Source: Anaerolineaceae bacterium
GTDB taxonomy: Bacteria; Chloroflexota; Anaerolineae; Anaerolineales; Anaerolineaceae
Assembly: GCA_016841365.1 (NCBI GenBank)
Contig: JAENZI010000010.1
Coordinates: 1-64,000 of the forward strand
Direction of reading: 5' to 3'
DNA: 64,000 nucleotides
In this document: piece after piece, positions 11,049 to 38,065 of the stretch
Numbering within the stretch: the first letter of the stretch is position 1
How the letters are laid out: every line of letters starts with the position of its first letter
Translations under genes and position numbers: made by a program
The notes under the pieces: generated by a model
Database searches by the model: none
Told to the model about the DNA's origin: nothing
Seen by the model: the letters and a program-made list of their open reading frames with translations, nothing else

Positions 11049-11054
11049 GGAATT

Positions 11055-14936: not shown

Positions 14937-15935
14937 ATGGATTGGACCAATAAAAATATTTTAGTGACCGGCGGCACCGGTTCCTTCGGCAAGAAGTTTG
15001 TAGAGATTATGCTCAAGGAATACAACCCCGCCCGGTTGATCATTTATAGCCGTGATGAATTGAAACAGCACGAAATGCGCATGGCAGGGTTTAACCACCC
15101 AAACCTGCGTTATTTCATCGGGGATGTACGCGACTTACCCAGGCTGAAGCGGGCATTTAACGGTGTTGATATTGTGGTGCATGCAGCGGCGCTCAAACAG
15201 GTGCCTGCCTGCGAATACAATCCAATGGAGGCGATCAAAACCAATATCCTTGGCAGCAGCAACGTGGTCGATGCCGCCCTGGATGCCGGCGTGAAAAAGG
15301 TATTAGCGCTCAGCACGGATAAGGCGGTTAACCCGGTCAACCTTTACGGTGCCACCAAACTGGCGGCAGAAAAATTGATGGTGCAGAGCAATTCCTACGC
15401 TGGTGGGATGATGACCCGCTTTAGCTGTGTGCGCTATGGCAATGTGGTCGGCTCACGCGGCAGCGTGGTTCCCTTGTTCATCCAGCAGCGCGAATCCGGT
15501 GTGGTCACGCTGACGGATGAGCGTATGACTCGATTTTGGATCTCGCTCGATCAGGGTGTGCGCTTTGTGATCCGCTGTATTGAAGAAATGCACGGCGGCG
15601 AAGTGTTTGTGCCAAAGATCCCCAGTATGAAGATGGTAGACCTGGCGAAAGCCATCGCTCCCCAAGCGGAGATCCGCATGATCGGCATCCGTCCTGGCGA
15701 GAAGCTCCATGAGGTGCTGATCTCGGAAGATGAGGCGCGCACAACGGTAGAGCTGGAGGATATGTATGTTGTTCAACCCGCGGCCGCGTTGTGGTTTGGT
15801 CATTACTGGTCGGATATAGGCGACCCGCTGCCGGACGGCTATCATTACGCCAGCGATAATAACTCAAAATGGCTGACGATGGCAGAGATCCAGGAGATGG
15901 TTGCTCCCATCGAAGCCGATTTAGAGAAGAAATAA
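14937..15935 (+). CDS. pseB: UDP-N-acetylglucosamine 4,6-dehydratase (inverting), PseB
   Basis: A 332-residue SDR enzyme that would convert UDP-GlcNAc to UDP-2-acetamido-2,6-dideoxy-L-arabino-hexos-4-ulose, the first step to pseudaminic acid. The glycine motif TGGTGSFG is at 11-18. Catalytic residues fit PseB: T127-D128-K129 in LSTDKAVNP and Y137-x3-K141 in LYGATK. SRDELKQ at 38-44, ALKQVPACEYNP near 86-97 and the C-terminal DGYHYASDNN near 302 are specific for PseB rather than FnlA/CapE-type dehydratases. A strong AGGAG ribosome site precedes the ATG. It is 10 bases from an RmlD-like reductase. PseC, PseH and PseG homologues are absent from the window. Confidence 0.9.
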   Translation: MDWTNKNILVTGGTGSFGKKFVEIMLKEYNPARLIIYSRDELKQHEMRMAGFNHPNLRYFIGDVRDLPRLKRAFNGVDIVVHAAALKQVPACEYNPMEAIKTNILGSSNVVDAALDAGVKKVLALSTDKAVNPVNLYGATKLAAEKLMVQSNSYAGGMMTRFSCVRYGNVVGSRGSVVPLFIQQRESGVVTLTDERMTRFWISLDQGVRFVIRCIEEMHGGEVFVPKIPSMKMVDLAKAIAPQAEIRMIGIRPGEKLHEVLISEDEARTTVELEDMYVVQPAAALWFGHYWSDIGDPLPDGYHYASDNNSKWLTMAEIQEMVAPIEADLEKK

Positions 15936-15945
15936 AGAAAGCCTT

Positions 15946-16863
15946 ATGCGCTTGATTGTGACGGGTGCGACAGGATTGTTAGGCCTGAACCTGAGCCTCA
16001 CAGCAGCAGCGCAAGGCCATGCTGTGACCGGGTTGGCGCATACGCGTCAACTGAACGGGATTCCCTTTACACTAAAAAATGTTGATTTACTGAACATGGA
16101 TCGGGCGCTGGCCATGATGACTGCGCTTGAACCAGAAGCGGTCATCCACTGCGCAGCGATTGCGAATTTGGGCGTGGCTGAGAACAACCCGGACTTAGCA
16201 TACCAGGTGAATGCTGCTGTCCCCGGACGGCTGGCGAAATGGGCTGCTGAGGCGGGTATTCCCTTTGTTCATATTTCAACCGATGCTGTTTTTGATGGGG
16301 CAGTGGGCGGCTATCGAGAAGATGATTCGACACATCCGTTGAGCGTCTATGCCCAAACAAAGCTGGCAGGCGAAGAGGCGGTCGGAGATGCCAATCCGGA
16401 TGCCCTGATTGCCAGAGTGGTTTTTTATGGTTGGAGCCTTTCGGGCAAGCGCAGCTTATCGGAATTTTTCTTTAACCAATTGAAAGCAGGTAATCGGCTC
16501 AAAGGGTTTGTGGATGCAATCTTTTGCCCTCTGTATGTTGAAGACCTGGCTGAAACCTTGTTAGAGATGCTTTTGCATAAGCTCACAGGCATCTATCACG
16601 TGGTCAGCCCCGAAAGTTTGAGCAAGTATGATTTCGGTGTGGGCATCGCACAGCGTTTTGGGTTTGACCCGGGATTGATTGAACCCGTGGAGATGCGCAG
16701 CCTGGACCGGGATGCACCACGCGCACTCAATCTGACCTTAAGCACAGATAAAGTCCAGGCTGACCTCGGTCATGCCCTGCCTTCAATTGCTGAGGGCATT
16801 GAGAGGCTTTATCAACGCTGGCAGGAGGGGTATCCAGCGCAACTGCAAACCTATGGAAAATAA
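15946..16863 (+). CDS. RmlD-like nucleotide-sugar 4-ketoreductase
   Basis: A 305-residue extended SDR of the dTDP-4-dehydrorhamnose reductase (RmlD) type. It has the NAD(P) motif GATGLLG at 7-13, the conserved HISTDAVFDG near 109-118 and the catalytic Y135-x3-K139 in VYAQTKLAG. Family members reduce the 4-keto group of a deoxy nucleotide sugar. Its position 10 bases after PseB suggests it acts on the PseB product, giving a 6-deoxy-N-acetylaminosugar such as an L-talosamine or L-fucosamine derivative. rmlA, rmlB and rmlC are not in the window, so a rhamnose role is less likely. Confidence 0.78.
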   Translation: MRLIVTGATGLLGLNLSLTAAAQGHAVTGLAHTRQLNGIPFTLKNVDLLNMDRALAMMTALEPEAVIHCAAIANLGVAENNPDLAYQVNAAVPGRLAKWAAEAGIPFVHISTDAVFDGAVGGYREDDSTHPLSVYAQTKLAGEEAVGDANPDALIARVVFYGWSLSGKRSLSEFFFNQLKAGNRLKGFVDAIFCPLYVEDLAETLLEMLLHKLTGIYHVVSPESLSKYDFGVGIAQRFGFDPGLIEPVEMRSLDRDAPRALNLTLSTDKVQADLGHALPSIAEGIERLYQRWQEGYPAQLQTYGK

Positions 16864-16892
16864 TATGAATTGTAGAAGTTGAAGGAGGCACG

Positions 16893-17963
16893 ATGACGTT
16901 TAAGATTGGAAACCACCTGATTGGTGAGGATCACCCAACTTATTTTATTGCAGACATTGCAGCCAACCACGATGGCAGCCTGGAACGGGCAAAGTTGTTG
17001 ATCCGTTTGGCGAAAGAGGCTGGCGCAGACGCTGCGAAATTCCAGAACTTCCAGGCGCCGAAGATTGTTTCGGATTATGGTTTCTCTCACATGAATGCAC
17101 AGGTTTCTCATCAAGCCAAATGGGAGAAACCGGTCACAGAAGTATATGCCTCCGCCTCAATCCCCTTTGAATGGTCACCGATTTTGAAGCAAACCTGCGA
17201 TGAGGAAGGTATCGATTATTTCTCATCGCCCTATGATTTTGAGGCGATTGATATGCTGGATGATTATGTCCCGGCATACAAAATCGGCTCGGGGGATATC
17301 ACCTGGATCGAATCCTGTGAGCGGATTGCGCGCAAAGGCAAACCGGTGCTGTTGGCAACGGGCGCTTCATCCATTGCTGATGTGCAGCGGGCGGTTCATG
17401 CCATTCTCGCCCTCAACCCGCAGTTGGTGCTAATGCAATGCAACACCAATTACACCGCCGAGGACGGGAATTTTGATAATATCCATTTGAATGTGCTCAA
17501 AACCTATCAAAACATGTTCCCGCAGGTCATTCTGGGGCTTTCAGACCATACCCACGGGCATGCCACGGTGCTTGGGGCGGTTGCCCTGGGTGCGCGCGTG
17601 ATTGAAAAACACTTCACCGACGATAATGATCGCGTTGGTCCTGATCATCCCTTTGCGATGAACCCTGAGACATGGTCTGCCATGGTGAAGGCGACCCGCC
17701 AATTGGAGCGCGCCATGGGGTCGGGCGATAAATTTGTGACTGAGAACGAAAAAGAGACAGTCATCATCCAGCGGCGCTGCCTTCGGGCGGCCAGGGAGAT
17801 CGAACCGGGCGAAATCATCACCCGTGAGATGATCGATGTCTTGCGTCCGGCAGCGCAGGGTGCCATCATGCCCTACGAAATCCAGGATGTGATTGGATTG
17901 AAAGCACTGGAGCGGATATTTGCCGGGCAGGAATTGCGCTGGACGCAATTTGGACATCCTTAA
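16893..17963 (+). CDS. NeuB-family nonulosonic acid synthase with SAF domain (NeuB1)
   Basis: A 356-residue PEP-dependent synthase of the NeuB/PseI/SpsE family, which condenses phosphoenolpyruvate with a six-carbon sugar to make a nine-carbon ulosonic acid. The TIM-barrel part shows AANHDGS at 23-29, the KFQ motif at 49-51, GSGDITW near 132 and LSDHT near 215. Residues about 290-350 form the antifreeze-like SAF domain (AREIEPGEIITREMI...RPAAQGA). A GAAGGAGG ribosome site precedes the ATG. It is distinct from the second synthase at 30383, which lacks SAF. Substrate is not certain: EKHFTDDN and GPDHPFA are unlike typical PseI. Confidence 0.85.
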   Translation: MTFKIGNHLIGEDHPTYFIADIAANHDGSLERAKLLIRLAKEAGADAAKFQNFQAPKIVSDYGFSHMNAQVSHQAKWEKPVTEVYASASIPFEWSPILKQTCDEEGIDYFSSPYDFEAIDMLDDYVPAYKIGSGDITWIESCERIARKGKPVLLATGASSIADVQRAVHAILALNPQLVLMQCNTNYTAEDGNFDNIHLNVLKTYQNMFPQVILGLSDHTHGHATVLGAVALGARVIEKHFTDDNDRVGPDHPFAMNPETWSAMVKATRQLERAMGSGDKFVTENEKETVIIQRRCLRAAREIEPGEIITREMIDVLRPAAQGAIMPYEIQDVIGLKALERIFAGQELRWTQFGHP

Positions 17964-17998
17964 GCGTCACCAATTTAACCATCAACGATTGAGGCTTG

Positions 17999-19093
17999 AT
18001 GCGCGTTTTATATTTTACCGAGAAGGATAGCCCGCACGATCGGCGTTTCTTGACCGCGTTGGCGGGTACGTCGCATACGGTTTTTACCTTGCGTCAAAAT
18101 ATGGCAGCACCAGCAACACCACCGGGGATCGTTGAACTCGACTGGCCGGGTGGACAGCCTGATTGGAAGGCTTGGGCTGGCTGGGAAGATGGAAAGCGCA
18201 AACTACAGCAGATCATCGAGGAGATCCAGCCTGACCTGGTGCATGCCGGCCCGGTGCAGGGGCCTGCACTGTTGGTGGCATTGGCGGGATTTCACCCGCT
18301 GGTGACGATGTCCTGGGGGTTTGATATGCTCAACAGGGTAAACCGCAGTCCGTGGATGCGAACGGCAACAGCCTATACGCTGGCGCATAGCGACGTCTTT
18401 TTGGGCGACTGCCAGACAGTAGTGGACGAAGCGCTCAGCTATGGATTTCCCCCAGATCGGGTGGTGCAATTCCCATGGGGTGTGGACCTGGACCTGTTTT
18501 CACCGCAGCGCGGGGGTGCAGAAGCGCGAGACCTCCGGCAGCGGTTGGGATGGGACGATAAGTTTGTGATCCTGTGCAACCGCACCTGGTCACCTATCTA
18601 TGGTGTGGACCTTATGGCGCAAGCCTTTGTGCAAGCCGCTGGCAAAGATCAACACTTGCGGTTGATTTTAGCAGGGGATGGTCGGCAGGCAGATTTCATC
18701 CACGAGACACTCGCGCCAGTTGCTGATAAGGTTTATTTCCCGGGTTGGGTAGCAATGGATGATTTACCGGGTGTGTATAACGCCGCAGATTTGTTCGTAA
18801 GCCCTTCACACTGTGACGGGTCTTCCGTTTCGCTGCTTGAGGCGTTGGCATGCGGTTTGCCGGCATTGGTCTCGGATATCCCCAGCAATCAGGAATGGGT
18901 CACGCCAGGCAAGAACGGCGCTCTTTTTCGTGATGGGGATGTTGACAATCTGAGCCGTGCCCTTTTGCAGATGGCAGCAGACGCTAACCTGGAAGCCTAC
19001 GGTGAGTGTGCGCGCCTGCTGGCGGAAGCACGGGCGAACTGGCAGGTGAATTTCAGCATGCTTCTTGATGCTTATCAGATGGCTATAGGTTAG
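17999..19093 (+). CDS. GT4-family glycosyltransferase
   Basis: A 364-residue GT-B glycosyltransferase of the GT4 type. The N-terminal domain opens with RVLYFTEKDSPHDRRFL, and the C-terminal domain has VILCNRTWSPIYGVDL, LVDP-like PWGVDLDLF and the donor-binding region SLLEALACGLPALVSDIP near 275-295 with the E-x7-E type pattern. A TTG lies 3 bases before the ATG chosen at 17999; GAGG at 17991-17994 could serve either. It lies between NeuB1 and the lipoprotein/SpsF pair, which suggests it transfers a sugar made in this module, but the donor cannot be deduced. Confidence 0.8.
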   Translation: MRVLYFTEKDSPHDRRFLTALAGTSHTVFTLRQNMAAPATPPGIVELDWPGGQPDWKAWAGWEDGKRKLQQIIEEIQPDLVHAGPVQGPALLVALAGFHPLVTMSWGFDMLNRVNRSPWMRTATAYTLAHSDVFLGDCQTVVDEALSYGFPPDRVVQFPWGVDLDLFSPQRGGAEARDLRQRLGWDDKFVILCNRTWSPIYGVDLMAQAFVQAAGKDQHLRLILAGDGRQADFIHETLAPVADKVYFPGWVAMDDLPGVYNAADLFVSPSHCDGSSVSLLEALACGLPALVSDIPSNQEWVTPGKNGALFRDGDVDNLSRALLQMAADANLEAYGECARLLAEARANWQVNFSMLLDAYQMAIG

Positions 19094-19200
19094 ACCGGTT
19101 TTTATCAAGAAGCTCACTTTGCAGACACAAACTTGTGAATTTGAATCTCCGGGTTCCATATTTTTCAAATTGTGTTGGTATAGAATTGAAATTCGCGGGT

Positions 19201-19229
19201 TTGGTAGATGGTCATAAATGCGTTAGAAT
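19201..19229 (+). promoter_or_regulatory. Candidate promoter before the lipoprotein gene
   Basis: TTGGTA at 19201-19206 and TAGAAT at 19224-19229 with a 17-base spacer, 52 bases ahead of the lipoprotein start. It would let the lipoprotein, SpsF-like and following genes be transcribed separately from module A. Confidence 0.5.
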
Positions 19230-19257
19230 CCATTTCATATTAGAACATCAGGGAAAT

Positions 19258-19284
19258 ATGAAAAGAGAAAGCTTAAACTTATGA
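19258..19284 (+). CDS. Possible 8-codon leader ORF coupled to the lipoprotein gene
   Basis: ATG at 19258, then eight codons in all (MKRESLNL) and a TGA at 19282-19284 that overlaps the lipoprotein ATG at 19281 as ATGA. GGGA at 19251-19254 is a modest ribosome site. The overlap is the classic arrangement for translational coupling. Whether the peptide is made is unknown. Confidence 0.3.
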   Translation: MKRESLNL

Positions 19285-20012: not shown

Positions 20013-20022
20013 GGTTTAGCTA

Positions 20023-20799
20023 ATGTCCCTTCAACCACGTGATCCCTCAGTTGTTGCGATCATCCAGGCGCGGATGGGCTCAAGCCGCCTGCCTGGTAAG
20101 GTGCTCAAAAAGATTAGCGGTGAACCGATGTTGTTTCATGTGGTCGTACGGGCAAGGCAAGCACAGGGAGTTGGGCAGGTTGTGGTCGCGACCACAACAG
20201 ATGAGAGTGATGACCCGGTATTCGAATTCTGCCGCCAACGCGGCTTCCCGTGTTACCGCGGTGATCCGTATGATGTGCTTGACCGTTATTACCAGGCGGC
20301 CAAATTGTATGAGGCACGCACCATCGTGCGCCTGACGGGTGATTGCCCGCTGATCGACCCACAGGAAGTCGATCGCACGATTCGCGCTTTTTTTGATGCC
20401 AGTGTGGATTTTGCCGCCAACCGCCTGCCGCCACCCTGGAAACGCACCACGCCGATTGGCATGGATACAGAGGTTGCTACCTTCGATGCCCTGTCTCGCG
20501 CCTGGCGAGAGGCACAGGCGAAATATGAGCGTGAGCATGTCATGCCCTATTTATACGATCAACCCGGGCGTTTCTCGGTTCTGCTGGCAGATCACGATCC
20601 GGATTATGGCCGCTTCCGTCTGGCAGTGGATACGCCGGAAGACCTGGAATTAATTCGAAACATCTTTGATCACTTTGGCGGCACGCAGGCGTTTACTATG
20701 CGTGACATCGTGGAATTGTTGGAAGAACACCCGGAATGGTTGCAAATCAACGCCGCGATTCAGCATAAATCCTTTACGGACGTCGACGATCGGAGCTGA
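20023..20799 (+). CDS. SpsF-like cytidylyltransferase
   Basis: A 258-residue protein of the SpsF/COG1861 family, homologous to CMP-Kdo and CMP-sialate synthetases. The nucleotide-binding signature IIQARMGSSRLPGKVL is at 13-28, followed by VVVATTTDESDDPV and YRGDPYDVLDRYYQ, then the conserved RLTGDCPLIDP near 105-115 that carries the metal-binding Asp residues. In Bacillus the SpsF protein belongs to spore-coat glycan synthesis with an SpsE (NeuB-like) enzyme. The gene is 10 bases after the lipoprotein and 6 bases before a polytopic gene. It is the probable CTP-dependent activator in module A, for the NeuB1 product. Confidence 0.82.
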   Translation: MSLQPRDPSVVAIIQARMGSSRLPGKVLKKISGEPMLFHVVVRARQAQGVGQVVVATTTDESDDPVFEFCRQRGFPCYRGDPYDVLDRYYQAAKLYEARTIVRLTGDCPLIDPQEVDRTIRAFFDASVDFAANRLPPPWKRTTPIGMDTEVATFDALSRAWREAQAKYEREHVMPYLYDQPGRFSVLLADHDPDYGRFRLAVDTPEDLELIRNIFDHFGGTQAFTMRDIVELLEEHPEWLQINAAIQHKSFTDVDDRS

Positions 20800-20805
20800 G
20801 CATTT

Positions 20806-22533: not shown

Positions 22534-22583
22534 GTCGTTGACGGCAAATGATATAATTTTTTTACCTCTCTTTGAAAGATATA

Positions 22584-23468: not shown

Positions 23469-23471
23469 GCA

Positions 23472-24401: not shown

Positions 24402-24426
24402 TGATGCTGATGATTGGATCAAACTA

Positions 24427-25422: not shown

Positions 25423-25470
25423 ATTGTTTTTTCTTGATGTTTGATTAGATCGATTGGGGAATGGATTTTT

Positions 25471-26871: not shown

Positions 26872-26897
26872 GAAAAATTTTGTGAAATGAGGCATTA

Positions 26898-27122: not shown

Positions 27123-27178
27123 TCAAACCGCCAATAGTTTGAAGGTTGGATGGTTCATCAAGAGATAGGAATTGAAAA

Positions 27179-28168
27179 TTGAAATTCTTGATTGCTGGTT
27201 TTGGTTCGATTGGTAGACGACATTTGAGAAATTTGCTGGCATTGGGGCAAACCGATATTGTTCTTTACCGGACGCATCACAGCACCCTCCCCGATCATGA
27301 ACTGGCCCCATTTACGGTTGAAACGGACCTTGAGGCAGCCCTGGCACATCAGCCGGATGGGGTGATCATTTCCAATCCGAGCGCTTTGCACCTGGATGTT
27401 GCGATCCCAGCAGTCCACGGGGGCGGGCACCTGCTGATTGAAAAGCCCGTAACCGACATTCGCGATGCGCGGTTGGCTGAACTTGAGCAGGTCGTGGATG
27501 AGATGAAGGTGAGAACACTGGTCGGGTTCCAATTCCGCTTTCACCCGGTGTTGAACCAGATCCGCAAGCTGCTGGCCTCCAACAGTTTAGGGCGGGTTTA
27601 TTCATTTCAGGTGCATTGGGGTGAATATCTGCCTGGCTGGCACCCCTGGGAGGATTACCGCCAGAGTTATGCCGCCCGCCGAGACCTGGGCGGCGGTGTA
27701 GTCAATACGCTCTGCCATCCGTTGGATTACGCCCGTTGGTTGTTTGGCGAGGTCAGCAGCGTTTCGGCTGTCACCGGGCAGGTCTCAGAACTGGAGCTGG
27801 ATGTGGAAGATGTGGCAGAGATCACACTCAAATTTGAGAGCGGCTGCCTGGGCGCCATTCACCTTGATTATTTTCAGCGGCCGGGGTCACACTGGATGAC
27901 GATCACCTGCGAGCAGGGTTTCATCGAATGGCATAACGATACCGGGATCGCCCGGGTCTATCACACCCAGGATGAAAGCTGGTCCACACTTTTTCCGCCG
28001 GAAGGCTTTGAGCGCAACGATCTGTTTTTAGAGGAGATGCGTCATTTCTTAGCATTGGTTTCAGGCGAAACGCAGTCCGTGTGTGATATCTCTGAGGGAA
28101 TCCGGACACTGGTTTTAACCGAAGCAGTGCATGAATCCGGTCGGAAAGGTTCAGTCATCGAAGTTTAA
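27179..28168 (+). CDS. Gfo/Idh/MocA-family NAD-dependent oxidoreductase
   Basis: A 329-residue oxidoreductase with a Rossmann GFGSIGRRH at 7-15 and the family EKPVTD near 97-102 (Lys of the active site), followed by a beta-sheet substrate domain including GGGVVNTLCHPLDYARWLFG near 175-195, which carries the catalytic H. The start is TTG at 27179: an in-frame TGA lies at 27173-27175, leaving no upstream ATG, and TAGGA at 27166-27170 is a suitable ribosome site. Such enzymes oxidise or reduce sugar hydroxyls. It heads the second ulosonic-acid module and may prepare the hexose or ketose precursor for NeuB2. Confidence 0.82.
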   Translation: MKFLIAGFGSIGRRHLRNLLALGQTDIVLYRTHHSTLPDHELAPFTVETDLEAALAHQPDGVIISNPSALHLDVAIPAVHGGGHLLIEKPVTDIRDARLAELEQVVDEMKVRTLVGFQFRFHPVLNQIRKLLASNSLGRVYSFQVHWGEYLPGWHPWEDYRQSYAARRDLGGGVVNTLCHPLDYARWLFGEVSSVSAVTGQVSELELDVEDVAEITLKFESGCLGAIHLDYFQRPGSHWMTITCEQGFIEWHNDTGIARVYHTQDESWSTLFPPEGFERNDLFLEEMRHFLALVSGETQSVCDISEGIRTLVLTEAVHESGRKGSVIEV

Positions 28169-28227
28169 TTTAATATCAAGGAAAAAAATGTTCTGCTGGT
28201 GGATTTTGGCAAACGGTCAGCACCTGC

Positions 28228-28260
28228 CTCGGCTGTAGATTCTACACCCGAGGGTATAAT
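28228..28260 (+). promoter_or_regulatory. Dyad operator candidate abutting a -10 box
   Basis: A perfect inverted repeat CTCGG-C-TGTAGA-T-TCTACA-C-CCGAG at 28228-28252 ends 2 bases before TATAAT at 28255-28260. The dyad covers the -35/spacer region, where no good -35 hexamer is visible. It precedes the SDR/NeuA-KdsC/NeuB2/KpsS-like group by 42 bases from the SDR start, so this group may be regulated separately from the rest. Confidence 0.55.
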
Positions 28261-28301
28261 TGGAATGGCTCATTGCGAATTTTAATCACAAGGATTCACG
28301 G

Positions 28302-29126
28302 ATGACAACGATCATGGATAAATTTTCTTTAGGGGGGCGCACAGCCCTGGTGACGGGTGGTGCTGGATTAATCGGCAAGCAATTCACCCGTGCTTTGGGG
28401 CAGGCAGGGGCGAAGGTGGTGGTTGCCGACCTGGCGGGTGAGGCTGCCCAGTTGCACGCGCAAGCACTGACCCAGGAGGGCATTGATGCCATGGCTGTCC
28501 GGGTGGATGTGACCGATCCGGAGTCGGTTTCAGATATGGTGCAGCGAGCGGTCGCTCGTTTTGGAAGCGTAGATATCTTGGTTAACAGCGCGGCGCTTGA
28601 CCCGAAATTTGACCCGGAAAATGTGTCGGCGCAATCTGCCAATGCCTTTGAAACCTACCCCCTTGACTCATGGCGTGAAGCCCTTGATGTCAACCTGACG
28701 GGGATGTTCTTAACCTGCCAGGCTTCTGCCCGGCAGATGTTGCTGCAGGATTATGGCGTGATCATCAATATTTGTTCGACTTATGGGTTGGTTGGCCCTG
28801 ACCAGCGTTTGTATGAACGCCCAGAGGGTCCGCGGCAGTATAAACCCGTGTACTACACCGTCAGCAAGGCTGGTGTCTTGGGGCTGACCCGTTACCTGGC
28901 GACCTATTATGCCGGCAAACCCATCCGGGTGAATGCGCTCACCCCGGGCGGAATCTATCATCAGCATGATGACGCCTTTCTCAAAGCCTATTCCGCACGA
29001 ACGGTGATGGGGCGTATGGCGAATCTGGATGAAATGAATGGTGCGGTGGTCTTTTTAGCCTCTGAAGGCTCTTCTTATATGACCGGCGCCAACTTAATTG
29101 TGGATGGAGGCTGGACGGCATGGTAG
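28302..29126 (+). CDS. Short-chain dehydrogenase/reductase
   Basis: A 274-residue classical SDR with NAD(P) motif TGGAGLIG near 15-22, NSAA near 94 and the catalytic triad Ser in NICSTYG (about 157-163) and Y-x3-K in YYTVSKAG (about 184-191). The ATG at 28302 is chosen over the upstream TTG because AAGGA at 28290-28294 is well placed and the promoter would overlap the longer form. The stop overlaps the following NeuA-KdsC start by 7 bases, indicating co-translation. Probably oxidises or reduces a sugar intermediate in module B. Confidence 0.82.
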   Translation: MTTIMDKFSLGGRTALVTGGAGLIGKQFTRALGQAGAKVVVADLAGEAAQLHAQALTQEGIDAMAVRVDVTDPESVSDMVQRAVARFGSVDILVNSAALDPKFDPENVSAQSANAFETYPLDSWREALDVNLTGMFLTCQASARQMLLQDYGVIINICSTYGLVGPDQRLYERPEGPRQYKPVYYTVSKAGVLGLTRYLATYYAGKPIRVNALTPGGIYHQHDDAFLKAYSARTVMGRMANLDEMNGAVVFLASEGSSYMTGANLIVDGGWTAW

Positions 29127-30349
29127 ATCAACCTGAAATCCTGGCGATCATCCCTGCACGGGGAGGATCGAAGGGCATCCCCAAGAAGAACATTCGCGAA
29201 TTTGCCGGCTACCCGCTGATCGCTTACAGCATTGCAGCAGGTCAGCGATCGAAACTCGTCACGCGAGTGTTGGTCTCAACCGATGACCCTGAAATCGCCG
29301 AAGTCGCACGCGAATTTAGGGCGGAGGTGCCCTTTTTGCGGCCAGCGGCATTGGCCCAGGATGACACACTGGACCATCCCGTTTTTGAGCACGCACTGCA
29401 ATGGCTCAAAGAAAATGAGGGCTATGAACCAGACCTTGTGGTGCAATTGAGGCCGACCTCGCCGATTCGACCGGTTAGGCTGGTTGATGAAGCTATTCAA
29501 ATCCTGCTCAATCATCCCGAGGCGGACTCCGTGCGCGGGGTGGTGCCTGCCGGTCAGAACCCGCATAAAATGTGGCGCATTGGAGTAGATGGACAGATGC
29601 AGCCATTGCTTGAAGTAGAAGGCATCACGGAGCCGTATAATGCCCCGCGTCAAAGCCTGCCGCCAGTTTATTGGCAGACGGGGCACATTGATGTGATCCG
29701 CCCCCAGGTCATTCTTCAGAAGGGTTCTATGAGCGGGAATGTGATCCTGCCGGTGATCATCGCGCCTGAATTCACGGTCGATATTGACACCATGCGCGAC
29801 TGGGAACGGTATGAAGGCCTCGTGCGAGAGCAAAATCTTGAGATGATCTACCCGGGCACACCTCCCAGACCCTGGCCTGAAAAAGTCAGCCTGGTTGTGT
29901 TTGATTTCGATGGCGTGATGACGGATAACCGTGTATGGGTCAATCGTGATGGCGAGGAATTTGTTGCTGCCAATCGGGGGGACGGTATGGGGATTGCGAT
30001 GCTGCTTAAAGCCGGGTTTAAGGCGGTGATCATCTCGACCGAGAAGAACCCTGTGGTTGCTGCCCGGGCTGAGAAGCTTAAACTGCCCTACTTCTTCGGT
30101 GTTGGGGATAAAGCGCGCACCCTCACGCAGTATCTTGAAAAGGAAAACATTGCCCCATCAGAGACGATCTATGTCGGCAATGATGTTAACGATTTACCCT
30201 GCTTCCCGCTGGTGGCTTGTGCGATCGCCGTGGCGGATGCCCAGCCAGAGGTGCGTCGTCTGGCTGACCAGGTTCTAAAGAACGCCGGTGGGTATGGCGC
30301 AGTGCGTGCGGTTTGTGATATCCTGCTAAACCGCTATTCGGCAGCATAA
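29120..30349 (+). CDS. CMP-sialic acid synthetase fused to KdsC-type phosphatase
   Basis: A 409-residue bifunctional protein. Residues 1-240 are an acylneuraminate cytidylyltransferase: IPARGGSKGIPKKN at 11-24, VSTDDPEIA near 52-60, QLRPTSPIR at 109-117 and VDIDTMRDW at 220-228. Residues 255-409 are a HAD phosphatase of the KdsC type, with intact motifs: DFDGVMTD at 262-269 (D262, D264), S306 in IISTEK, K331, and GNDVND at 353-358 with D355 and D358. In human CMAS the matching C-terminal domain lacks activity; here the catalytic residues are kept. The order suggests dephosphorylation of an ulosonic-acid 9-phosphate followed by CTP activation. Overlaps the SDR by 7 bases. Confidence 0.9.
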   Translation: MVDQPEILAIIPARGGSKGIPKKNIREFAGYPLIAYSIAAGQRSKLVTRVLVSTDDPEIAEVAREFRAEVPFLRPAALAQDDTLDHPVFEHALQWLKENEGYEPDLVVQLRPTSPIRPVRLVDEAIQILLNHPEADSVRGVVPAGQNPHKMWRIGVDGQMQPLLEVEGITEPYNAPRQSLPPVYWQTGHIDVIRPQVILQKGSMSGNVILPVIIAPEFTVDIDTMRDWERYEGLVREQNLEMIYPGTPPRPWPEKVSLVVFDFDGVMTDNRVWVNRDGEEFVAANRGDGMGIAMLLKAGFKAVIISTEKNPVVAARAEKLKLPYFFGVGDKARTLTQYLEKENIAPSETIYVGNDVNDLPCFPLVACAIAVADAQPEVRRLADQVLKNAGGYGAVRAVCDILLNRYSAA

Positions 30350-30382
30350 TTGGATATCTTTATTTGATCCTAAGGAGACTTA

Positions 30383-31258
30383 ATGACACGAGAAATTAAA
30401 ATTGGCGATCGCCTGGTGGGGGAAGGGCATCCGACTTACATCATTGCGGAGATTGGGATCAACCACAACGGCAGCATCGAAATTGCCAAAGAGTTGATCA
30501 AATCCTCGTTTGACGCCGGCGTAGACGCAGTCAAATTCCAAAAACGCACCCCTGAGTTATGTGTGCCCGAGCACCAGAAAAATCAAATGCGAGATACCCC
30601 CTGGGGCTACATCTCCTATCTCGATTACCGCTATCAGGTGGAATTCGGCCAGGAGGAATATGAAGAAATCGATGCATACTGCAAGTCTTTGGGCATCGAT
30701 TGGCTGGCAAGCGCCTGGGATATCCCGTCACTTGAGTTTATCGATGCGTTTGCGCCGCCTGCCCATAAGGTGCCGTCAGCCTTGCTCACCGATCACAAAC
30801 TGTTGCGCGCGATGAAAGACACTGGCCGAGCGGTGATCCTCTCTACCGGGATGTCAACCATGGAGGAGATTAGAGGTGCTGTTGAGATCCTTGGCTTGGA
30901 AAATTTATTGATCTGTCATACCACCAGCAGCTACCCCTGCCCGCCCGATGAATTGAATTTGAAGATGATCCACACGCTCCAGGCAGAATTTGACTGCCCG
31001 ATCGGTTATTCAGGGCACGAAGTAGGCTTGGTGCCATCTGCTTTGGCGGTAGCATTGGGTGCATCCCTTGTGGAGCGCCATGTGACTCTTGACCGCGCCA
31101 TGTGGGGGTCGGATCAGGCAGCATCGATCGAGCCGCACGGCGTCAGGACGCTGGTCAAATATATCCGTGTCACTGAAAAATCAATGGGCGATGGCGAAAA
31201 GCAGGTTTATGAAAGTGAACAGTCGTCACTTAAAAAACTGCGACGTTACAGCCGCTAA
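30383..31258 (+). CDS. NeuB-family nonulosonic acid synthase without SAF domain (NeuB2)
   Basis: A 291-residue TIM-barrel synthase of the NeuB family. INHNG at 26-30, KFQKRTPE at 51-58, TPWGYISYLDYR near 72-83, SAWDIPS near 112 and STGMST near 156 are conserved. It ends soon after the barrel (SLKKLRRYSR) and so lacks the antifreeze-like domain that NeuB1 has. SAF loops normally complete the active site of the partner subunit in the dimer, so its absence is notable though short NeuB-like proteins are known. AAGGAG precedes the ATG. It follows NeuA-KdsC by 33 bases; together they could make, dephosphorylate and activate a KDN- or Neu-type acid. Confidence 0.85.
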   Translation: MTREIKIGDRLVGEGHPTYIIAEIGINHNGSIEIAKELIKSSFDAGVDAVKFQKRTPELCVPEHQKNQMRDTPWGYISYLDYRYQVEFGQEEYEEIDAYCKSLGIDWLASAWDIPSLEFIDAFAPPAHKVPSALLTDHKLLRAMKDTGRAVILSTGMSTMEEIRGAVEILGLENLLICHTTSSYPCPPDELNLKMIHTLQAEFDCPIGYSGHEVGLVPSALAVALGASLVERHVTLDRAMWGSDQAASIEPHGVRTLVKYIRVTEKSMGDGEKQVYESEQSSLKKLRRYSR

Positions 31259-31272
31259 CCGCTGGATAAGAA

Positions 31273-32880
31273 ATGAAATTAATCGAACGAGCCACTGATT
31301 TTCTGCAAACCCAGCCTGTTCGGCTGGGTGTCAATGCCGATATCCGCAAGATGGCTAAGGCTGTTGCCAAGGCTGCCCCCAAACCGGATGACCGGAAGAT
31401 TGTGGTGTCGTTCAATGCGTCCACACGCATCACCGGGTTAAGCCTGAATGCGGCCTTTGCCATGCTGACGGGGTGGTCTTTGCGCCTGCAGGGCGTCAGG
31501 GTGGCGCATTTCACCTGCAAGCGCGGGATGACCCGCTGTGTGCTGGGCACGGACAATAATGATGTCAGGCGGTTGCCGCCCTGCCAGCAGTGCGTGATGC
31601 AATCTGCCGCCATCTATGACCGATCAGACGTGATTTGGATGGATTTTTACAACACCACCGACTTCGCTAAGTCGCTGCACGGCACGAATTTAGCGGAATT
31701 GCGGAATTTCGAATATGAAGGTATACCGCTCGGCGAGTTATGTCTGCCCTCAATGCGCTGGATCCTGCGCCGGCATCATCTGCAAGATGACGAGGACACG
31801 TGCATCCTTTACCGCCACTATATCCTCTCGGCATATAAGGTCGCCAAGAAATTCGAACGGCTGCTCGGTGAAATTGAGCCGCGCTCGGTGATGGTGTTCA
31901 ACGGCATGCAGTTCCCGGAAGCGACTACCCGCTGGGTCGCGCATCAACATGAGCTGCCGGTTTACTCACACGAAGTCGGTTTGAGGCCATTTTCTGCCTT
32001 CTTCACCGAGGGGGAGGCAACCGCTTACCCGGTAAACATCCCCGACACCTTCCAGCTTTCTGATGAACAGAACCGGGAATTGGACGATTATCTTTCCAAG
32101 CGGTTTAAGGGTGATTTCTCCATGGCTGGGGTCTCATTCTGGCCTGAAATGACAGGACTGGATGAGGCATTTGTTGAAAAGATCACCCGCTTCAAACAGG
32201 TCGTTCCGATCTTCACCAATGTGATCTTCGACACCAGCCAGCCGCATGCCAATGTGCTCTTTTCAGATATGTTCAGCTGGCTGGATAGCGTACTGGAAGT
32301 GGTCAGGGCGCATCCTGAGACCTTGTTTGTGATCCGAGCCCACCCCGACGAATCACGCCCCGGTAAGGAAAGCCGTGAGAGCGTGACGGATTGGGTCAAT
32401 GCCCGGAATGCGGAACAACTGCCGAATTTGGTCTTTGTGGGGCCGGATGCCTATTTCAGCTCTTACGAGATGATCCAACGGGCGAAATTTGTGATGATCT
32501 ACAACTCCACCATTGGCATGGAAGCCTCGATCATGGGTGCACCGGTGTTATGTGCTGGCAAAGCCCGCTTCACGCAATTGGATACGGTCTTTTTCCCCGA
32601 GTCGCGGGAGGCCTATTTGGCGCAGCTCCAGTCTTTTTTGGTGGCAGATGAGGTGCAAGCGCCTGAAGCTTACCGGCTGAATGCCCGCCGGTTTTTGTAT
32701 TATCAGCTTTACCGCACATCGCTCCCCTTCGATCAATTCTTAAAACCGGATGGCATCTGGCCTGGTTTTGTGCGTTTAAAGGATTTTGGCCCGCAGGAGC
32801 TTTTGCCTGAAAATTCCCCCACGTTGAAGGTCATCTCTCAGGGTTTGCTGGAAGGGAAGGACTTTTTGCTGCCTGAGTGA
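31273..32880 (+). CDS. KpsS/KpsC-like capsule biosynthesis protein
   Basis: A 535-residue cytoplasmic protein with the capsule-synthesis (KpsC/KpsS-like) C-terminal region: FVIRAHPDESRPGK near 355-368, then RAKFVMIYNSTIGMEASIMGAPVLCAGKAR near 410-440, the donor-site signature. The N-terminal half is unlike the 12343-13926 homologue and has a Cys-rich piece (CKRGMTRCVLG and CQQC near 75-110). It is 14 bases after NeuB2 and is the last gene before a terminator. The neighbouring CMP-sugar synthetase fits the family role, since characterised KpsC/KpsS use CMP-Kdo. It may transfer the sugar made by module B. Confidence 0.7.
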   Translation: MKLIERATDFLQTQPVRLGVNADIRKMAKAVAKAAPKPDDRKIVVSFNASTRITGLSLNAAFAMLTGWSLRLQGVRVAHFTCKRGMTRCVLGTDNNDVRRLPPCQQCVMQSAAIYDRSDVIWMDFYNTTDFAKSLHGTNLAELRNFEYEGIPLGELCLPSMRWILRRHHLQDDEDTCILYRHYILSAYKVAKKFERLLGEIEPRSVMVFNGMQFPEATTRWVAHQHELPVYSHEVGLRPFSAFFTEGEATAYPVNIPDTFQLSDEQNRELDDYLSKRFKGDFSMAGVSFWPEMTGLDEAFVEKITRFKQVVPIFTNVIFDTSQPHANVLFSDMFSWLDSVLEVVRAHPETLFVIRAHPDESRPGKESRESVTDWVNARNAEQLPNLVFVGPDAYFSSYEMIQRAKFVMIYNSTIGMEASIMGAPVLCAGKARFTQLDTVFFPESREAYLAQLQSFLVADEVQAPEAYRLNARRFLYYQLYRTSLPFDQFLKPDGIWPGFVRLKDFGPQELLPENSPTLKVISQGLLEGKDFLLPE

Positions 32881-32912
32881 TTAATCTTTAAAATGATCTA
32901 TATTTAATTCAT

Positions 32913-32947
32913 ATGCTGGTAAGGCACATCGCTCACCAGCATTTTTT
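32913..32947 (+). terminator. Rho-independent terminator after module B
   Basis: Stem ATGCTGGT (32913-32920) and ACCAGCAT (32935-32942) with a 14-nt loop, followed by T residues to 32947. It ends transcription after the second KpsS-like gene and separates it from the convergent membrane-protein gene. Confidence 0.85.
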
Positions 32948-32965
32948 ATTTGTTGTTACAAAAAG

Positions 32966-34600: not shown

Positions 34601-34642
34601 AATTGGTTCTCCACCGTTTATAAATTATAATTCATGATGAAA

Positions 34643-34669
34643 TTGAGCATTTTAAATCAGCGGTATAAT
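34643..34669 (+). promoter_or_regulatory. Promoter for module C
   Basis: TTGAGC at 34643-34648 and TATAAT at 34664-34669 with a 15-base spacer, 41 bases before the NeuA-like ATG. Immediately upstream, TTATAATTCA (34625-34634) and TGAAATT (34638-34644) repeat the two words seen at the regulator promoter (8715-8724 and 8730-8736), with a different gap between them. Confidence 0.55.
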
Positions 34670-34710
34670 GTTTACCCTGAAACTGGTCAAACGACATAGA
34701 AAGCAAGCAT

Positions 34711-35388
34711 ATGAGTGAAAGAATTGTTGCCCTGGTGCCCATGCGGCATCATTCTGAGCGCGTTAAAGGAAAAAATTATCGTCCCCTGGCAGGGAAGCCG
34801 CTGTTCCATCACATTCTCAACACCCTGAGCGCTGTCCCTGAGCTGGATGAAATCCTGGTGGATACCGACAGCCCTGAAATTATAGATGGATTGGCTGAGA
34901 ATTTCCCCAAAGTGCGCAGCGTTGTCCGACCCGAGGAATTGCGCGGGGATCATGTGCCGATGAATGAGATCCTGATCCACGACACTTCGCTGATCGAGGC
35001 CGACTACTATTTGCAGACCCATTCAACCAATCCATTGCTGCGAGCAGAAACGATTTCTCAGGCGATCCAGACCTTCACTGCAGCCATACCTGAAAACGAT
35101 TCGCTGTTCGGCGTTACCCGCCTGCACACCCGGCTTTACGATCAGCTCGGGCGGGCGATTAATCACAACCCCACCGTACTGCTGCGCACACAGGACCTTC
35201 CGCCAGTGTTCGAAGAAAATTCTTGCATTTATATCTTCGCGCGGCAGACGCTGCTTTCACGCCGCAACCGGCTGGGTGAGCGTCCTCTGATGTTTGAGAT
35301 CCCCTCGATTGAAGCCTGGGATATCGATGAGGAATTGGACTTCACCATTGCAGACACCCTCTACCGTCACCTATATGGGCAGTCGTAA
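34711..35388 (+). CDS. Short NeuA-like CMP-sugar synthetase
   Basis: A 225-residue cytidylyltransferase of the acylneuraminate/CMP-Kdo synthetase superfamily. The signature ALVPMRHHSERVKGKNY at 7-23 replaces the more usual R-x-G-S-K with H-x-E-R-V-K-G-K-N, as in some family members. LVDTDSPE is at 49-56 and HSTNPLLRAETI near 107-118. Near the end WDIDEELDF supplies the metal-binding Asp pair. It follows a promoter and heads a tight group with 2-hydroxyacid dehydrogenase, SDR and DUF115-like genes. This is the third CMP-sugar synthetase-like gene in the locus. Confidence 0.82.
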   Translation: MSERIVALVPMRHHSERVKGKNYRPLAGKPLFHHILNTLSAVPELDEILVDTDSPEIIDGLAENFPKVRSVVRPEELRGDHVPMNEILIHDTSLIEADYYLQTHSTNPLLRAETISQAIQTFTAAIPENDSLFGVTRLHTRLYDQLGRAINHNPTVLLRTQDLPPVFEENSCIYIFARQTLLSRRNRLGERPLMFEIPSIEAWDIDEELDFTIADTLYRHLYGQS

Positions 35389-35427
35389 CAAGCCACCCGC
35401 ACCCCCATTGGACACAGGAGAATGCAC

Positions 35428-36405
35428 ATGAAAACGGTTTTGATTTCAGCGCCGTACATTTTGCCCGAAATGGAACGTTTCGGACCGGTGTTGTCATCCT
35501 TCGACCTGGAATTGATCGTTGCAGACGTGAATGAACGTTTGTCGGAGGAAGAGCTATTGGCTTATGCCGGGCAGTTTGACGGCACCATCTGCGGTGATGA
35601 CCGCTACACGCGCCGGGTGATTGAAGCTTGCGCGCCCCGCTTGCGTGTTATCTCAAAATGGGGCACCGGGATTGATTCGATTGATCAAACGGCTGCGGCG
35701 AACATCGGTATTCTGGTTGGGAACACACCAAATGCCTTCACGGTGCCGGTGGCGGAAAGCGTGATCGGCTACATGTTAGCCTTTGCCCGTCAAATCCCCT
35801 GGCTGGATGAGCAGATGAAAGCCGGGCAGTGGGATAAGATCAACGGCAAGACCCTCAGCGAGTGCACTCTGGGAGTGGTTGGCGTTGGCAATGTGGGCAA
35901 GGCTGTCTTGCGCCGGGCACGAGCTTTCGGAATGAAATTGCTGGGTAACGATATTGTGGATATCGCACCGGACTTCTTGCTGGAAAATGGCGTGACAATG
36001 ACCAGCCTGGAAGACTTACTTTCACAATCGGATTTTATCAGCCTGAACTGCACGCTCAACCCAACCAGCCATCATCTGATCAATGCTGAACGCCTGGCGC
36101 AGTGCAAGCAGGGCTCGGTGTTGGTCAACACGGCACGCGGCCCGGTGATGGATCAGCCGGCAGTGATCGATGCATTGCAGCGCGGCGTGTTGGGCGGCGC
36201 GGCGTTGGATGTGTTTGAAGACGAACCCCTGCCGGATGGCAGTCCGCTGCGGGGGATGTCAAATGTTTTGCTGGCGCCGCACAACTCAAATTCAAGCCCC
36301 AGGTTCTGGGAGCGGGTGCATTGGAATACGATCAGGAATTTGTTGATCGGGTTGAATATTCCCACGGATGGACTGGAAGAACATAAAGCGCGTTATGCCG
36401 CCTGA
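35428..36405 (+). CDS. D-isomer-specific 2-hydroxyacid dehydrogenase (phosphoglycerate-dehydrogenase-like)
   Basis: A 325-residue NAD-dependent dehydrogenase. Dinucleotide motif GVVGVGNVGKAV lies near 150-161; the catalytic residues appear as R in NTARGPVMD (near 233-241), E in DVFEDEPLP (near 260) and H in LAPHNS (near 283). No regulatory ACT domain follows, unlike standard SerA. AGGAG at 35416-35420 lies 7 bases from the ATG at 35428 and only 1 base from the upstream ATG, so the shorter start is chosen. In this context it may act on a carboxylic or phosphorylated sugar precursor instead of serine synthesis. Confidence 0.8.
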   Translation: MKTVLISAPYILPEMERFGPVLSSFDLELIVADVNERLSEEELLAYAGQFDGTICGDDRYTRRVIEACAPRLRVISKWGTGIDSIDQTAAANIGILVGNTPNAFTVPVAESVIGYMLAFARQIPWLDEQMKAGQWDKINGKTLSECTLGVVGVGNVGKAVLRRARAFGMKLLGNDIVDIAPDFLLENGVTMTSLEDLLSQSDFISLNCTLNPTSHHLINAERLAQCKQGSVLVNTARGPVMDQPAVIDALQRGVLGGAALDVFEDEPLPDGSPLRGMSNVLLAPHNSNSSPRFWERVHWNTIRNLLIGLNIPTDGLEEHKARYAA

Positions 36406-36475
36406 TAGTCCAGTCGGGCAAGTCTAATATTGCTAAACATGTAAATTAAAAAACGCACGGGTAGAAGGAAAGCGA

Positions 36476-37246
36476 ATGATGACTGAAAAAGAATCTCGCA
36501 TATTGTTGATCACAGGCGCTGCAGGGGGGATTGGCAGGGCGACGGTTGAAATCTTTTCACAAAAGGGATGGCGGGTGATCGGCGTGGATCGCAGCCCGAG
36601 ATATGACGCCTTCCCTGAGGACGGAATTTATATCCAGGCGGATATCTCATTGCCGGAAAAGATTGAAGAGATTTACGAAAAAGCTTCATCATACACTGAT
36701 ACGCTTGACGCAGTGGTCAATAATGCAGCGGTTCAAATTGCCAAGCCCCTGATTGATACCACAGCCGATGAGTGGGATATGGTGATGGCGTCCAACTTAC
36801 GTTCGGTCTTTTTAGGCGCTAAATTAGCCTATCCGCTGCTCAAAGCCAGGGGTGGGGGCGCGATTGTCAATGTGTCTTCGGTGCATGCCGTGGCGACTTC
36901 TGCGAATATTGCCGCTTATGCCGCCAGCAAAGGCGGTTTGCTGGCACTGACCCGCGCCATGGCGATCGAATTTGCCCCGGATGAGATCCGGGTGAACGCC
37001 ATTTTACCCGGTGCAGTTGATACGCCTATGCTGCGGGCAGGCTTTAACCGCGGCCACCTTGGTGCGGGTGATGTTCTGGACCGGCTGGAAAACCTGGCGC
37101 GGAAGACCGTCAATGGGCGCGTTGGTCAACCGGAGGAAATTGCCCGATCTATTTATTTCCTTGCCGACAGCACTCAATCCTCTTTTATGACCGGGCAGGC
37201 GTTGATTGTGGACGGCGGGGCGACCGCCCGATTGAGCACGGAGTGA
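36476..37246 (+). CDS. Short-chain dehydrogenase/reductase
   Basis: A 256-residue classical SDR. TGAAGGIG near 14-21 binds the cofactor, NNAA near 82-85 is conserved, and the catalytic Ser-Tyr-Lys are in VNVSSVHA and YAASKGG (about 139-165). The C-terminus ends QALIVDGGATAR. It lies 70 bases after the hydroxyacid dehydrogenase and 3 bases before the DUF115-like gene. It is a second SDR in the ulosonic-acid core and would act on a sugar of module C. A purine-rich GAAGGA precedes the twin ATG. Confidence 0.82.
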   Translation: MMTEKESRILLITGAAGGIGRATVEIFSQKGWRVIGVDRSPRYDAFPEDGIYIQADISLPEKIEEIYEKASSYTDTLDAVVNNAAVQIAKPLIDTTADEWDMVMASNLRSVFLGAKLAYPLLKARGGGAIVNVSSVHAVATSANIAAYAASKGGLLALTRAMAIEFAPDEIRVNAILPGAVDTPMLRAGFNRGHLGAGDVLDRLENLARKTVNGRVGQPEEIARSIYFLADSTQSSFMTGQALIVDGGATARLSTE

Positions 37247-37249
37247 GCG

Positions 37250-38065
37250 ATGAAGATTAAACAATCTCTAAAAGAAATTGTGCCGGAACCCTTATGGGAA
37301 ATGGCATCGGGCCGCTATTGGGCTTGGTATAACCGTGACCGGCATTTGCTGGCCCGGGTTTTCTCGCCAACCTGGTTCAAGAACAAGCAACGCTTGGAAA
37401 CCTGGCGTAACCGCTTTGCCGGGCAGCGCTGTTTTGTGGTTGGCAACGGCCCCAGCCTGCGCAACACCGACCTGAGCAAGTTGGCTGGGTCATTTTCGAT
37501 TGGGATGAACCGGATCTATCTAGCATTTGATGAATACCAATTCAAGACATCCTGTGTTGTCTCGGTCAACGACCTGGTACTGGAGCAATGCCATCAGGAT
37601 TTGCAGGCGCTGGACATCCCGGTTTTTGTGAGCTGGCGTGCGCGCAAGTTATTCGAACCCGGCCCAAAGATGCTGTTCTTGGATTCAGACTACACCCTCC
37701 CTGAAAATTTCAACGGGGATGCTACAGGACGCTTGTTTGAAGGCTTCACGGTGACCTATATCAGCCTGCAGTTGGCTTATTTTTTGGGGTTTTCTGAGGT
37801 CATTCTGATTGGCGTTGATCACAACTTCGCGACTAAAGGCCCAGCCAATGCTGTGGTCACATCACAGGGGGATGACCCCAACCATTTCGCCGCCAATTAT
37901 TTCGGCAAGGGTTTTCGCTGGCAGTTGCCGGATTTAGAGGGCTCTGAACGCGCTTACCGGATGGCAAAAGCAGCCTATGAAGCCGATGGGCGTAAGATTT
38001 TAGATGCAACAGTGGATGGGAAACTCACCATTTTCCCGAAAGTTGACTTCAACACATTGTTTTAA
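37250..38065 (+). CDS. DUF115/GT42-like putative CMP-sugar glycosyltransferase
   Basis: A 271-residue protein of the DUF115/MptE-like group. The core starts at FVVGNGPSL (62-70), with NRIYLAF following, then SLQLAYFLGFSEVILIGVDHNF (172-193; GVD at 188-190) and H212 in PNHF. The order (GNGPSL, a long helix, IGxDxxF, a His before a conserved Tyr/Phe) parallels the GT42 sialyltransferases such as Cst-II and the Maf flagellar glycosyltransferases. I infer a CMP-nonulosonic-acid transferase. The gene is 3 bases after the SDR, in the same unit as a NeuA-like gene, so donor and transferase would be made together. The assignment rests on motif order, not on close similarity. Confidence 0.62.
   Translation: MKIKQSLKEIVPEPLWEMASGRYWAWYNRDRHLLARVFSPTWFKNKQRLETWRNRFAGQRCFVVGNGPSLRNTDLSKLAGSFSIGMNRIYLAFDEYQFKTSCVVSVNDLVLEQCHQDLQALDIPVFVSWRARKLFEPGPKMLFLDSDYTLPENFNGDATGRLFEGFTVTYISLQLAYFLGFSEVILIGVDHNFATKGPANAVVTSQGDDPNHFAANYFGKGFRWQLPDLEGSERAYRMAKAAYEADGRKILDATVDGKLTIFPKVDFNTLF

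Follow-up and report, generated by a model that had tools for sequence, protein, structure and literature searches.

The stretch of DNA analysed here (the window) covers positions 1 to 64,000 of a contig of 115,864 bases, JAENZI010000010.1, in the draft genome of an Anaerolineaceae bacterium (GCA_016841365.1; 2.86 Mb, 19 contigs, 97.99% complete). It carries a nonulosonic acid locus whose genes fall into three groups, modules A, B and C. The original prediction, made from the sequence alone, had placed two NeuB synthases and three cytidine monophosphate (CMP)-sugar synthetases here, and all five were found to pass their Pfam cut-offs at the predicted places. They are also the only over-cut-off matches to NeuB (two) and CTP_transf_3 (three) in the whole genome. 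The coordinates of the other genes named earlier in the three modules likewise match genes that pass Pfam cut-offs. The genes are as follows.

14937..15935, forward strand, module A: PseB, an inverting UDP-N-acetylglucosamine (UDP-GlcNAc) 4,6-dehydratase (NCBIfam TIGR03589, 502 bits, cut-off 407.75)
15946..16863, forward strand, module A: RmlD-like reductase (PF04321, 206.1 bits; TIGR01214, 199.3 bits, under the cut-off of 224.05)
16893..17963, forward strand, module A: NeuB1, nonulosonate synthase with a SAF domain (PF03102, 239.5 bits, and PF08666)
17996..19093, forward strand, module A: GT4-type protein (PF13692/PF00534)
20023..20799, forward strand, module A: SpsF-type cytidylyltransferase, proposed CMP-nonulosonate synthetase (PF02348, 128.4 bits)
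27179..28168, forward strand, module B: Gfo/Idh/MocA dehydrogenase (PF22725/PF02894/PF01408)
28260..29126, forward strand, module B: SDR1 (PF13561)
29120..30349, forward strand, module B: NeuA-KdsC fusion of a CMP-sugar synthetase and a HAD phosphatase (PF02348, 80.7 bits, in the N-terminal part, and HAD matches)
30383..31258, forward strand, module B: NeuB2, SAF-less synthase, proposed to be of the ketodeoxynonulosonic acid (Kdn) or Kdn-9-phosphate type (PF03102, 250.4 bits, no SAF)
31273..32880, forward strand, module B: KpsS-like (Capsule_synth) protein, candidate ulosonic-acid transferase (PF05159, 25.1 bits)
34711..35388, forward strand, module C: NeuA2, third CMP-sugar synthetase-like protein (PF02348, 91.6 bits)
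35422..36405, forward strand, module C: 2-hydroxyacid dehydrogenase (PF02826/PF00389)
36476..37246, forward strand, module C: SDR2 (PF13561)
37250..38065, forward strand, module C: DUF115 protein, candidate CMP-nonulosonate transferase (PF01973)

Modules A and B are separated by about 6.4 kb filled with other, mostly glycan-related genes, and a reverse-strand gene (32966-34600) lies between modules B and C. The two NeuB proteins are of different kinds and three genes encode activating enzymes; therefore at least two ulosonic acids are likely to be made, in line with the earlier suggestion of several different ones.

NeuB2 stops at the point where the SAF domain would start. This domain is also missing from all 80 NeuB2 relatives kept (the best 80 of at least 585 confirmed relatives, 59-84% identity), which are 288-314 residues long and include a metagenome-assembled genome (MAG) titled Brevefilum sp. 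(84%) and Bellilinea caldifistulae (69%), which fits a source in or near the Anaerolineaceae. In the meningococcal NeuB, Arg314 of the C-terminal domain is reported to help place the N-acetyl group of N-acetylmannosamine; that enzyme rejects mannose, and the human enzyme takes mannose-6-phosphate (PMC6795526). The absence of the Arg314-bearing domain from NeuB2 therefore fits a substrate without an acetamido group. A KdsC-type phosphatase gene lies at most 3 kb from NeuB2 in 62 of the 66 loci with enough upstream sequence, and NeuA and KdsC form a single open reading frame (ORF) in 60 of the 61 loci that have both, including 5/5 in Streptomyces (these counts may include one genome twice, as L066/L199 and as L075/L047 of Bellilinea). 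The fusion protein of the window scores 154.7 bits for the PseF model (cut-off 205.7) and 104.2 bits for the KdsC-phosphatase model (cut-off 106.95).

The described Kdn route leads from mannose-6-phosphate and phosphoenolpyruvate (PEP), through a phosphatase and a CMP-sugar synthetase, to CMP-Kdn (PMC6200933). Since it needs no aminotransferase, acetyltransferase or UDP-sugar hydrolase, the lack of amino-sugar enzymes poses no puzzle for module B. In the versions of Bacteroides thetaiotaomicron and Prymnesium parvum, as in module B, a synthase, a HAD phosphatase and a CMP-sugar synthetase occur without amino-sugar enzymes (PMC6200933), but in the window NeuA and KdsC are fused and SDR1 and Gfo/Idh are added; this likeness is one of gene set. 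A counterpart in sequence is found in five Streptomyces species (other than S. coelicolor, the source of the SCO4873-SCO4882 numbering), where a NeuA-KdsC fusion directly precedes a SAF-less NeuB that is 61-63% identical to NeuB2 and is the only NeuB match in 5/5 genomes. The cell-wall teichulosonic acid of Streptomyces is described as a polymer of galactose and Kdn (PMC11481543) and has been assigned to SCO4873-SCO4882 (PMC13011467), where the sialic acid synthase is given as SCO4880 by one source (PMC8269224) but NeuB as SCO4881 by another (PMC2367054). The five Streptomyces loci differ from the window in that no match to SDR1, Gfo/Idh or the KpsS-like protein was seen there. One of them (L142), in which ORFs without a Pfam match may be wrong frames, has a DUF6716 protein, and no DUF6716 match was seen among the 50 window ORFs that our Pfam scans covered. 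The Kdn capsule of Serratia was set aside as a model for module B: its NeuB is reported to bear an extra isomerase domain (PMC9000132), which makes it another arrangement.

We consider it quite probable that module B encodes a Kdn-type route. The SAF-less NeuB2 would join PEP to a hexose 6-phosphate that carries no acetamido group, most likely mannose-6-phosphate; the KdsC half of the fusion would then take off the 9-phosphate, and the NeuA half would make CMP-Kdn or the CMP form of a Kdn isomer. Judged by its genes, module B is thus a member, with extra enzymes, of the known Kdn-type route, with a predicted product. In its favour, the genome has a phosphomannose isomerase match (PF20511, 58.5 bits). 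Several observations tell against this assignment. The phosphatase half reaches 78.8 bits with the model for the B. thetaiotaomicron-type Kdn-9-phosphate phosphatase (NF058599, cut-off 180). Two further isomerase models, PF10432 and PF01238, have no match in the genome. Gfo/Idh and SDR1 lie outside plain Kdn synthesis. Finally, SDR1 and the NeuB2 type occur with transketolase halves in a MAG titled Ignavibacteria and beside a class-III aminotransferase in a MAG titled Melioribacter (L129); Kdn may thus not be the product throughout the clade. The SAF-less NeuB clusters at L126:5262-10882 and L129:6459-10906, with SpsF and either transketolase halves or the class-III aminotransferase, would represent another route.

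The two additional enzymes raise the alternative that SDR1 and Gfo/Idh alter the hexose or hexose phosphate before it reaches NeuB2, which would make the product of module B a Kdn stereoisomer or deoxy variant. The run Gfo/Idh-SDR1-NeuA-KdsC-NeuB2 is seen in the window and, often with intervening genes, in many Anaerolineales loci; it also occurs in MAGs titled Poribacteria (L114, L117) and KSB1 (L119), and the aminotransferase beside SDR1 and NeuB2 in L129 points the same way. Their presence is nonetheless variable: Gfo/Idh was found in 27 of the 48 named NeuB2 loci with at least 9.5 kb upstream and SDR1 in 49 of the 66 with at least 3 kb upstream. Both are missing at this place in the genus's two other genomes (G243 and G600), and no match to either was seen in the five Streptomyces loci, while NeuB2 and the fusion stay. 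We regard this alternative as a real possibility, but one with clearly less than an even chance. For the Kdn-type route, SDR1 and Gfo/Idh could serve as an optional tailoring step that oxidises and re-reduces one hydroxyl centre; on a simple reading, SDR1 would make a ketone that Gfo/Idh reduces to the other epimer or an aminotransferase aminates. Gfo/Idh and SDR1 may also be enzymes like PtmF and PtmA, respectively, of the legionaminic route. Outside the window's family, an ATP-sulfurylase/APS-kinase-like gene was seen inside module B at 4 of the 8 loci queried for it, and a sulfotransferase-like gene at all 4 queried; Pfam confirmed one of each (L054:3697-5421 and L052:10661-11515, respectively). 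The polymer may be sulfated in those relatives.

Module A is conserved as a unit of a different composition. A search of 400 genomes of the phylum identified NeuB1 relatives (at least 61% identity) in 34 genomes including its own: 9 in the window's family, 23 in a sister family and 2 others. One genome of the sister family (G622) is without NeuB1, and none is listed without it in the window's family. PseB and the RmlD-like gene accompany NeuB1 in 34/34 genomes. Among the neighbourhoods of the 33 other genomes, 32 have both genes upstream of NeuB1 inside the distance limits; in the exception, L155, PseB is 5.9 kb and RmlD 4.8 kb upstream. Of the evaluable loci, 29 of 30 have GT4 after NeuB1 and 23 of 25 have SpsF (here, too, the same genome may be counted twice). 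The tblastn searches for DegT and WecB, run with three proteins of the window's own genome, found no intact DegT/PseC-like gene near NeuB1 in any of the 33 neighbourhoods, and no KdsC-type gene lies within 3.5 kb of NeuB1 in these 33 loci. A DegT fragment (L198:13507-14091), flanked by PseB and a NeuA gene, does occur in one neighbourhood, which belongs to a genome from a different class of the phylum. It has in-frame stops and no C-terminal half and, barring an artefact of the draft assembly, looks like a decayed PseC. At three more remote NeuB loci (L212-L214, 37-38% identity), the same 20 kb hold PseB, DegT and SpsF, in two cases on the other strand; these loci look like an ordinary set of the pseudaminic acid (Pse) type. 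The presence of SpsF in these PseB-DegT loci supports it as the activating enzyme, a role also suggested for SpsF in a Vibrio cluster (PMC7371886). In L155, an AAC(3)-family acetyltransferase and a DUF4910 protein lie between GT4 and SpsF (L155:11659-13873), with similar ORFs in several other sister-family loci, and a partial second NeuB1 match adjoins the full gene at about 8.4 kb.

The enzymes that a standard pathway would need were sought in the window and in the genome. Pfam scans of 50 window ORFs revealed no DegT-type sugar aminotransferase, no PseG and no NeuC. The earlier claim of no aminotransferase in the window needs one correction: a class I/II aminotransferase is present (44697-45938). 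In the genome, PseG has no match at E ≤ 1, and no NeuC or LegG was found; the sole over-cut-off Epimerase_2 protein is a WecB equivalog (479.3 bits) on the same contig, about 38 kb beyond the window end. Seven DegT matches, four strong and three weak, all lie on other contigs. None of the four strong ones reaches the cut-off for PseC or LegC, and the best PseC-model score, that of a DegT protein on contig C13, is 359.9 bits (cut-off 423.5). A full pathway for Pse, neuraminic acid (Neu) or legionaminic acid (Leg) elsewhere in the genome was therefore rejected, on the failure to find PseG, NeuC or a cut-off-passing PseC; PseH was not among the genes searched.

NeuB1 itself differs from the synthases of the standard pathways. 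Its Arg318 aligns with Arg314 of 1xuu, and this equivalent is kept in 34/34 NeuB1 sequences, as expected for an acetamido sugar substrate. It scores 242.9 bits for the PseI model (cut-off 340.25), and it has Thr at the Asn184 position in 34/34 sequences, which differs from the residues given for all three pathways in PMC7371886. Compared with the pseudaminic pathway (PseB-C-H-G-I-F), module A shares PseB, a SAF-bearing NeuB and a cytidylyltransferase, but it has the RmlD-like reductase, no PseG or cut-off-passing PseC, and other specificity residues in NeuB1. On the simplest reading, PseC has given way to the RmlD-like reductase, which leaves oxygen at the future C7. PseB would make a UDP-4-keto-6-deoxy sugar, and the RmlD-like enzyme would reduce the 4-ketone to a hydroxyl in place of amination by PseC. 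Once UDP has been released, NeuB1 would join the 2-acetamido-6-deoxyhexose and PEP into a 5-acetamido-3,5,9-trideoxy nonulosonic acid, and SpsF would activate this acid. We put this PseC-free route to a 9-deoxy acid with a hydroxyl rather than nitrogen at C7 forward tentatively, at somewhat short of an even chance. Two points count against it. At one active-site position, described as Phe in synthases for Pse and Gly in those for Neu and Leg (PMC7371886), NeuB1 has Gly in 34/34 sequences (Tyr, Tyr and Phe in L212-L214). The Gly argues against an altro-type (Pse-like) substrate; it suggests that the substrate may have a Neu/Leg-like orientation at C2, and we claim no configuration. The UDP-release step of module A, moreover, has no candidate bearing a PseG or NeuC signature. 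The GT4 protein could be either a transferase or a candidate for this missing step.

PseB-family and RmlD-like enzymes also open the routes to UDP-N-acetyl-L-fucosamine (UDP-L-FucNAc)-type sugars. The two enzymes of module A might accordingly make a UDP-6-deoxy-amino sugar for a glycosyltransferase and not feed NeuB1 at all, and both the WecB equivalog on the same contig and the Gly of NeuB1, which suits a manno-type substrate, would agree with this. However, none of the 34 genomes has NeuB1 without PseB and RmlD beside it, PseB scores as PseB and far under the FnlA cut-off (247 versus 730), and in 33 loci the 6-7 kb around NeuB1 show no WecB match. Without PseB and RmlD, NeuB1 would also have no known source of substrate here, NeuC being absent. 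We therefore hold this explanation to be rather unlikely. Very unlikely is an ordinary pseudaminic route with the functions of PseC, PseH and PseG supplied by unlinked or unrecognised genes: PseB is genuine, the DegT protein on contig C13 comes some way towards the PseC model and the genome is a 98% complete draft, but that score stays under the cut-off, PseG is without a match, no DegT gene lies beside NeuB1 in 32 of the 33 loci (the remaining one has the decayed copy), and NeuB1 falls below the PseI cut-off and lacks the Phe.

For the PseC-free route, our literature search found no title or abstract describing PseB and an RmlD-like enzyme with NeuB in the absence of PseC, and a search for nonulosonic acids of Chloroflexi gave nothing relevant. 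The original prediction that no described pathway has this gene set holds for module A, which is a conserved PseC-less variant not matched to a described pathway in the literature searched. It does not hold for module B, whose core is that of the described Kdn route and of the Streptomyces pair of NeuA-KdsC and SAF-less NeuB. By chemistry alone, the predicted product of module A belongs to the same substance class as fusaminic acid of Fusobacterium nucleatum 25586 (PMC12940168), a trideoxy acid that, according to a title cited there, was reported with 2-acetamido-2,6-dideoxy-L-altrose in one O-chain. No gene set for fusaminic acid was found in the literature searched, which gave names and structures only. 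Taking together gene content, conservation, domain architecture, predicted folds and the failure to find alternative genes, with all substrates and products predicted from them, we lean slightly towards at least two nonulosonic acids made by separate routes as the best overall explanation, one Kdn-type (module B) and one trideoxy (module A).

Module C probably modifies or transfers one of the two acids. After NeuA2, the 2-hydroxyacid dehydrogenase follows in 15 of 15 evaluable loci, and SDR2 and the DUF115 gene each in 12 of 15. The five best solved relatives of NeuA2 are all of the NeuA type, with low scores (33-44 bits). A Kdo (3-deoxy-manno-octulosonic acid) route was rejected for module C, as no Kdo-8-phosphate (KDO8P) synthase match exists in the genome. 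The model of the DUF115 protein (mean confidence, pLDDT, 87.1) is closest to the Maf structure 5mu5 (Z 14.6, root-mean-square deviation (rmsd) 5.2, 227 aligned), followed by the CstII/CstI sialyltransferases (Z up to 12.8, rmsd 3.5, 184 aligned) and the pterin kinase HPPK (Z 12.0). It shares the predicted fold of Maf and CstII/CstI, but has 271 residues compared with 632 in Maf 5mu5 and shows 13-21% identity in the alignment rows. For the KpsS-like protein (pLDDT 88.6), KpsC β-Kdo transferases rank 1-5 in VIA-align (Z 14.8-16.0), and Foldseek E-values rank UDP-GlcNAc 2-epimerases first. These predicted folds support, without proving, the DUF115 and KpsS-like proteins as two of the three CMP-sugar transferases proposed originally; the third, presumably the GT4 protein, is placed by Pfam among ordinary GT-B transferases. 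With no Kdo synthase found in the genome, any KpsC-like enzyme of this organism would need another ulosonic acid, and Kdn from module B would be the obvious candidate donor acid. The joint claim that module A is an additional nonulosonic pathway derived from the Pse route, with PseC lost and its step taken by the RmlD-like enzyme, and that the Kdn-type acid from module B takes the place of Kdo as the sugar used by KpsC-like transferases, is doubtful as a whole.

Upstream of module A lie the following genes.

10200..12338, forward strand: ABC exporter, permease and ATPase with a Wzt_C domain (PF01061; PF00005 and PF14524)
12343..13926, forward strand: second Capsule_synth (KpsS-like) protein, just upstream of module A (PF05159, 20.8 bits, cut-off 20)

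The second Capsule_synth gene is also found upstream of PseB in most of the NeuB1 neighbourhoods looked at. With the ABC permease, the Wzt_C ATPase and this protein upstream, the whole looks like a locus for an ABC-exported surface polysaccharide, of which the stretch with modules A to C would be the sugar-making part. Conservation of the locus extends across Anaerolineaceae and into a sister family, and the cultured relative Bellilinea caldifistulae (L047, L075) has all three modules. The gene-order comparison with other Anaerolineae, proposed originally as a check, showed that the gene sets recur in the same syntenic order in relatives, which argues against chance. Elsewhere in the window, a Streptomycin adenylyltransferase-family protein lies at the contig start (112-948; PF04439, 132.9 bits), and a lipid A acyltransferase-family protein is encoded at 3298-4227, in a genome without a KDO8P synthase match. 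A low-GC island at 54357-57640 (GC 0.32-0.35 versus about 0.51) carries a sulfatase-family protein and a 529-residue protein without a Pfam match, and three GT87-family proteins stand in tandem on the reverse strand at 57780-61619.

Judging by record titles, some relatives of the locus come from MAGs of digesters and other anoxic habitats. Kdn and acids with the mass of Pse or Leg have been measured in granular-sludge polymers, where annotation is reported to have been unable to separate synthases for N-acetylneuraminic acid (Neu5Ac) from those for Kdn (PMC10483923). The missing SAF domain, together with a KdsC-type phosphatase gene, provides a testable sequence marker for a Kdn-type route. 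If the PseC-free reading of module A is true, its PseB/RmlD/NeuB route would for the first time give genetic access to 7-hydroxy, 9-deoxy acids, fusaminic acid among them.

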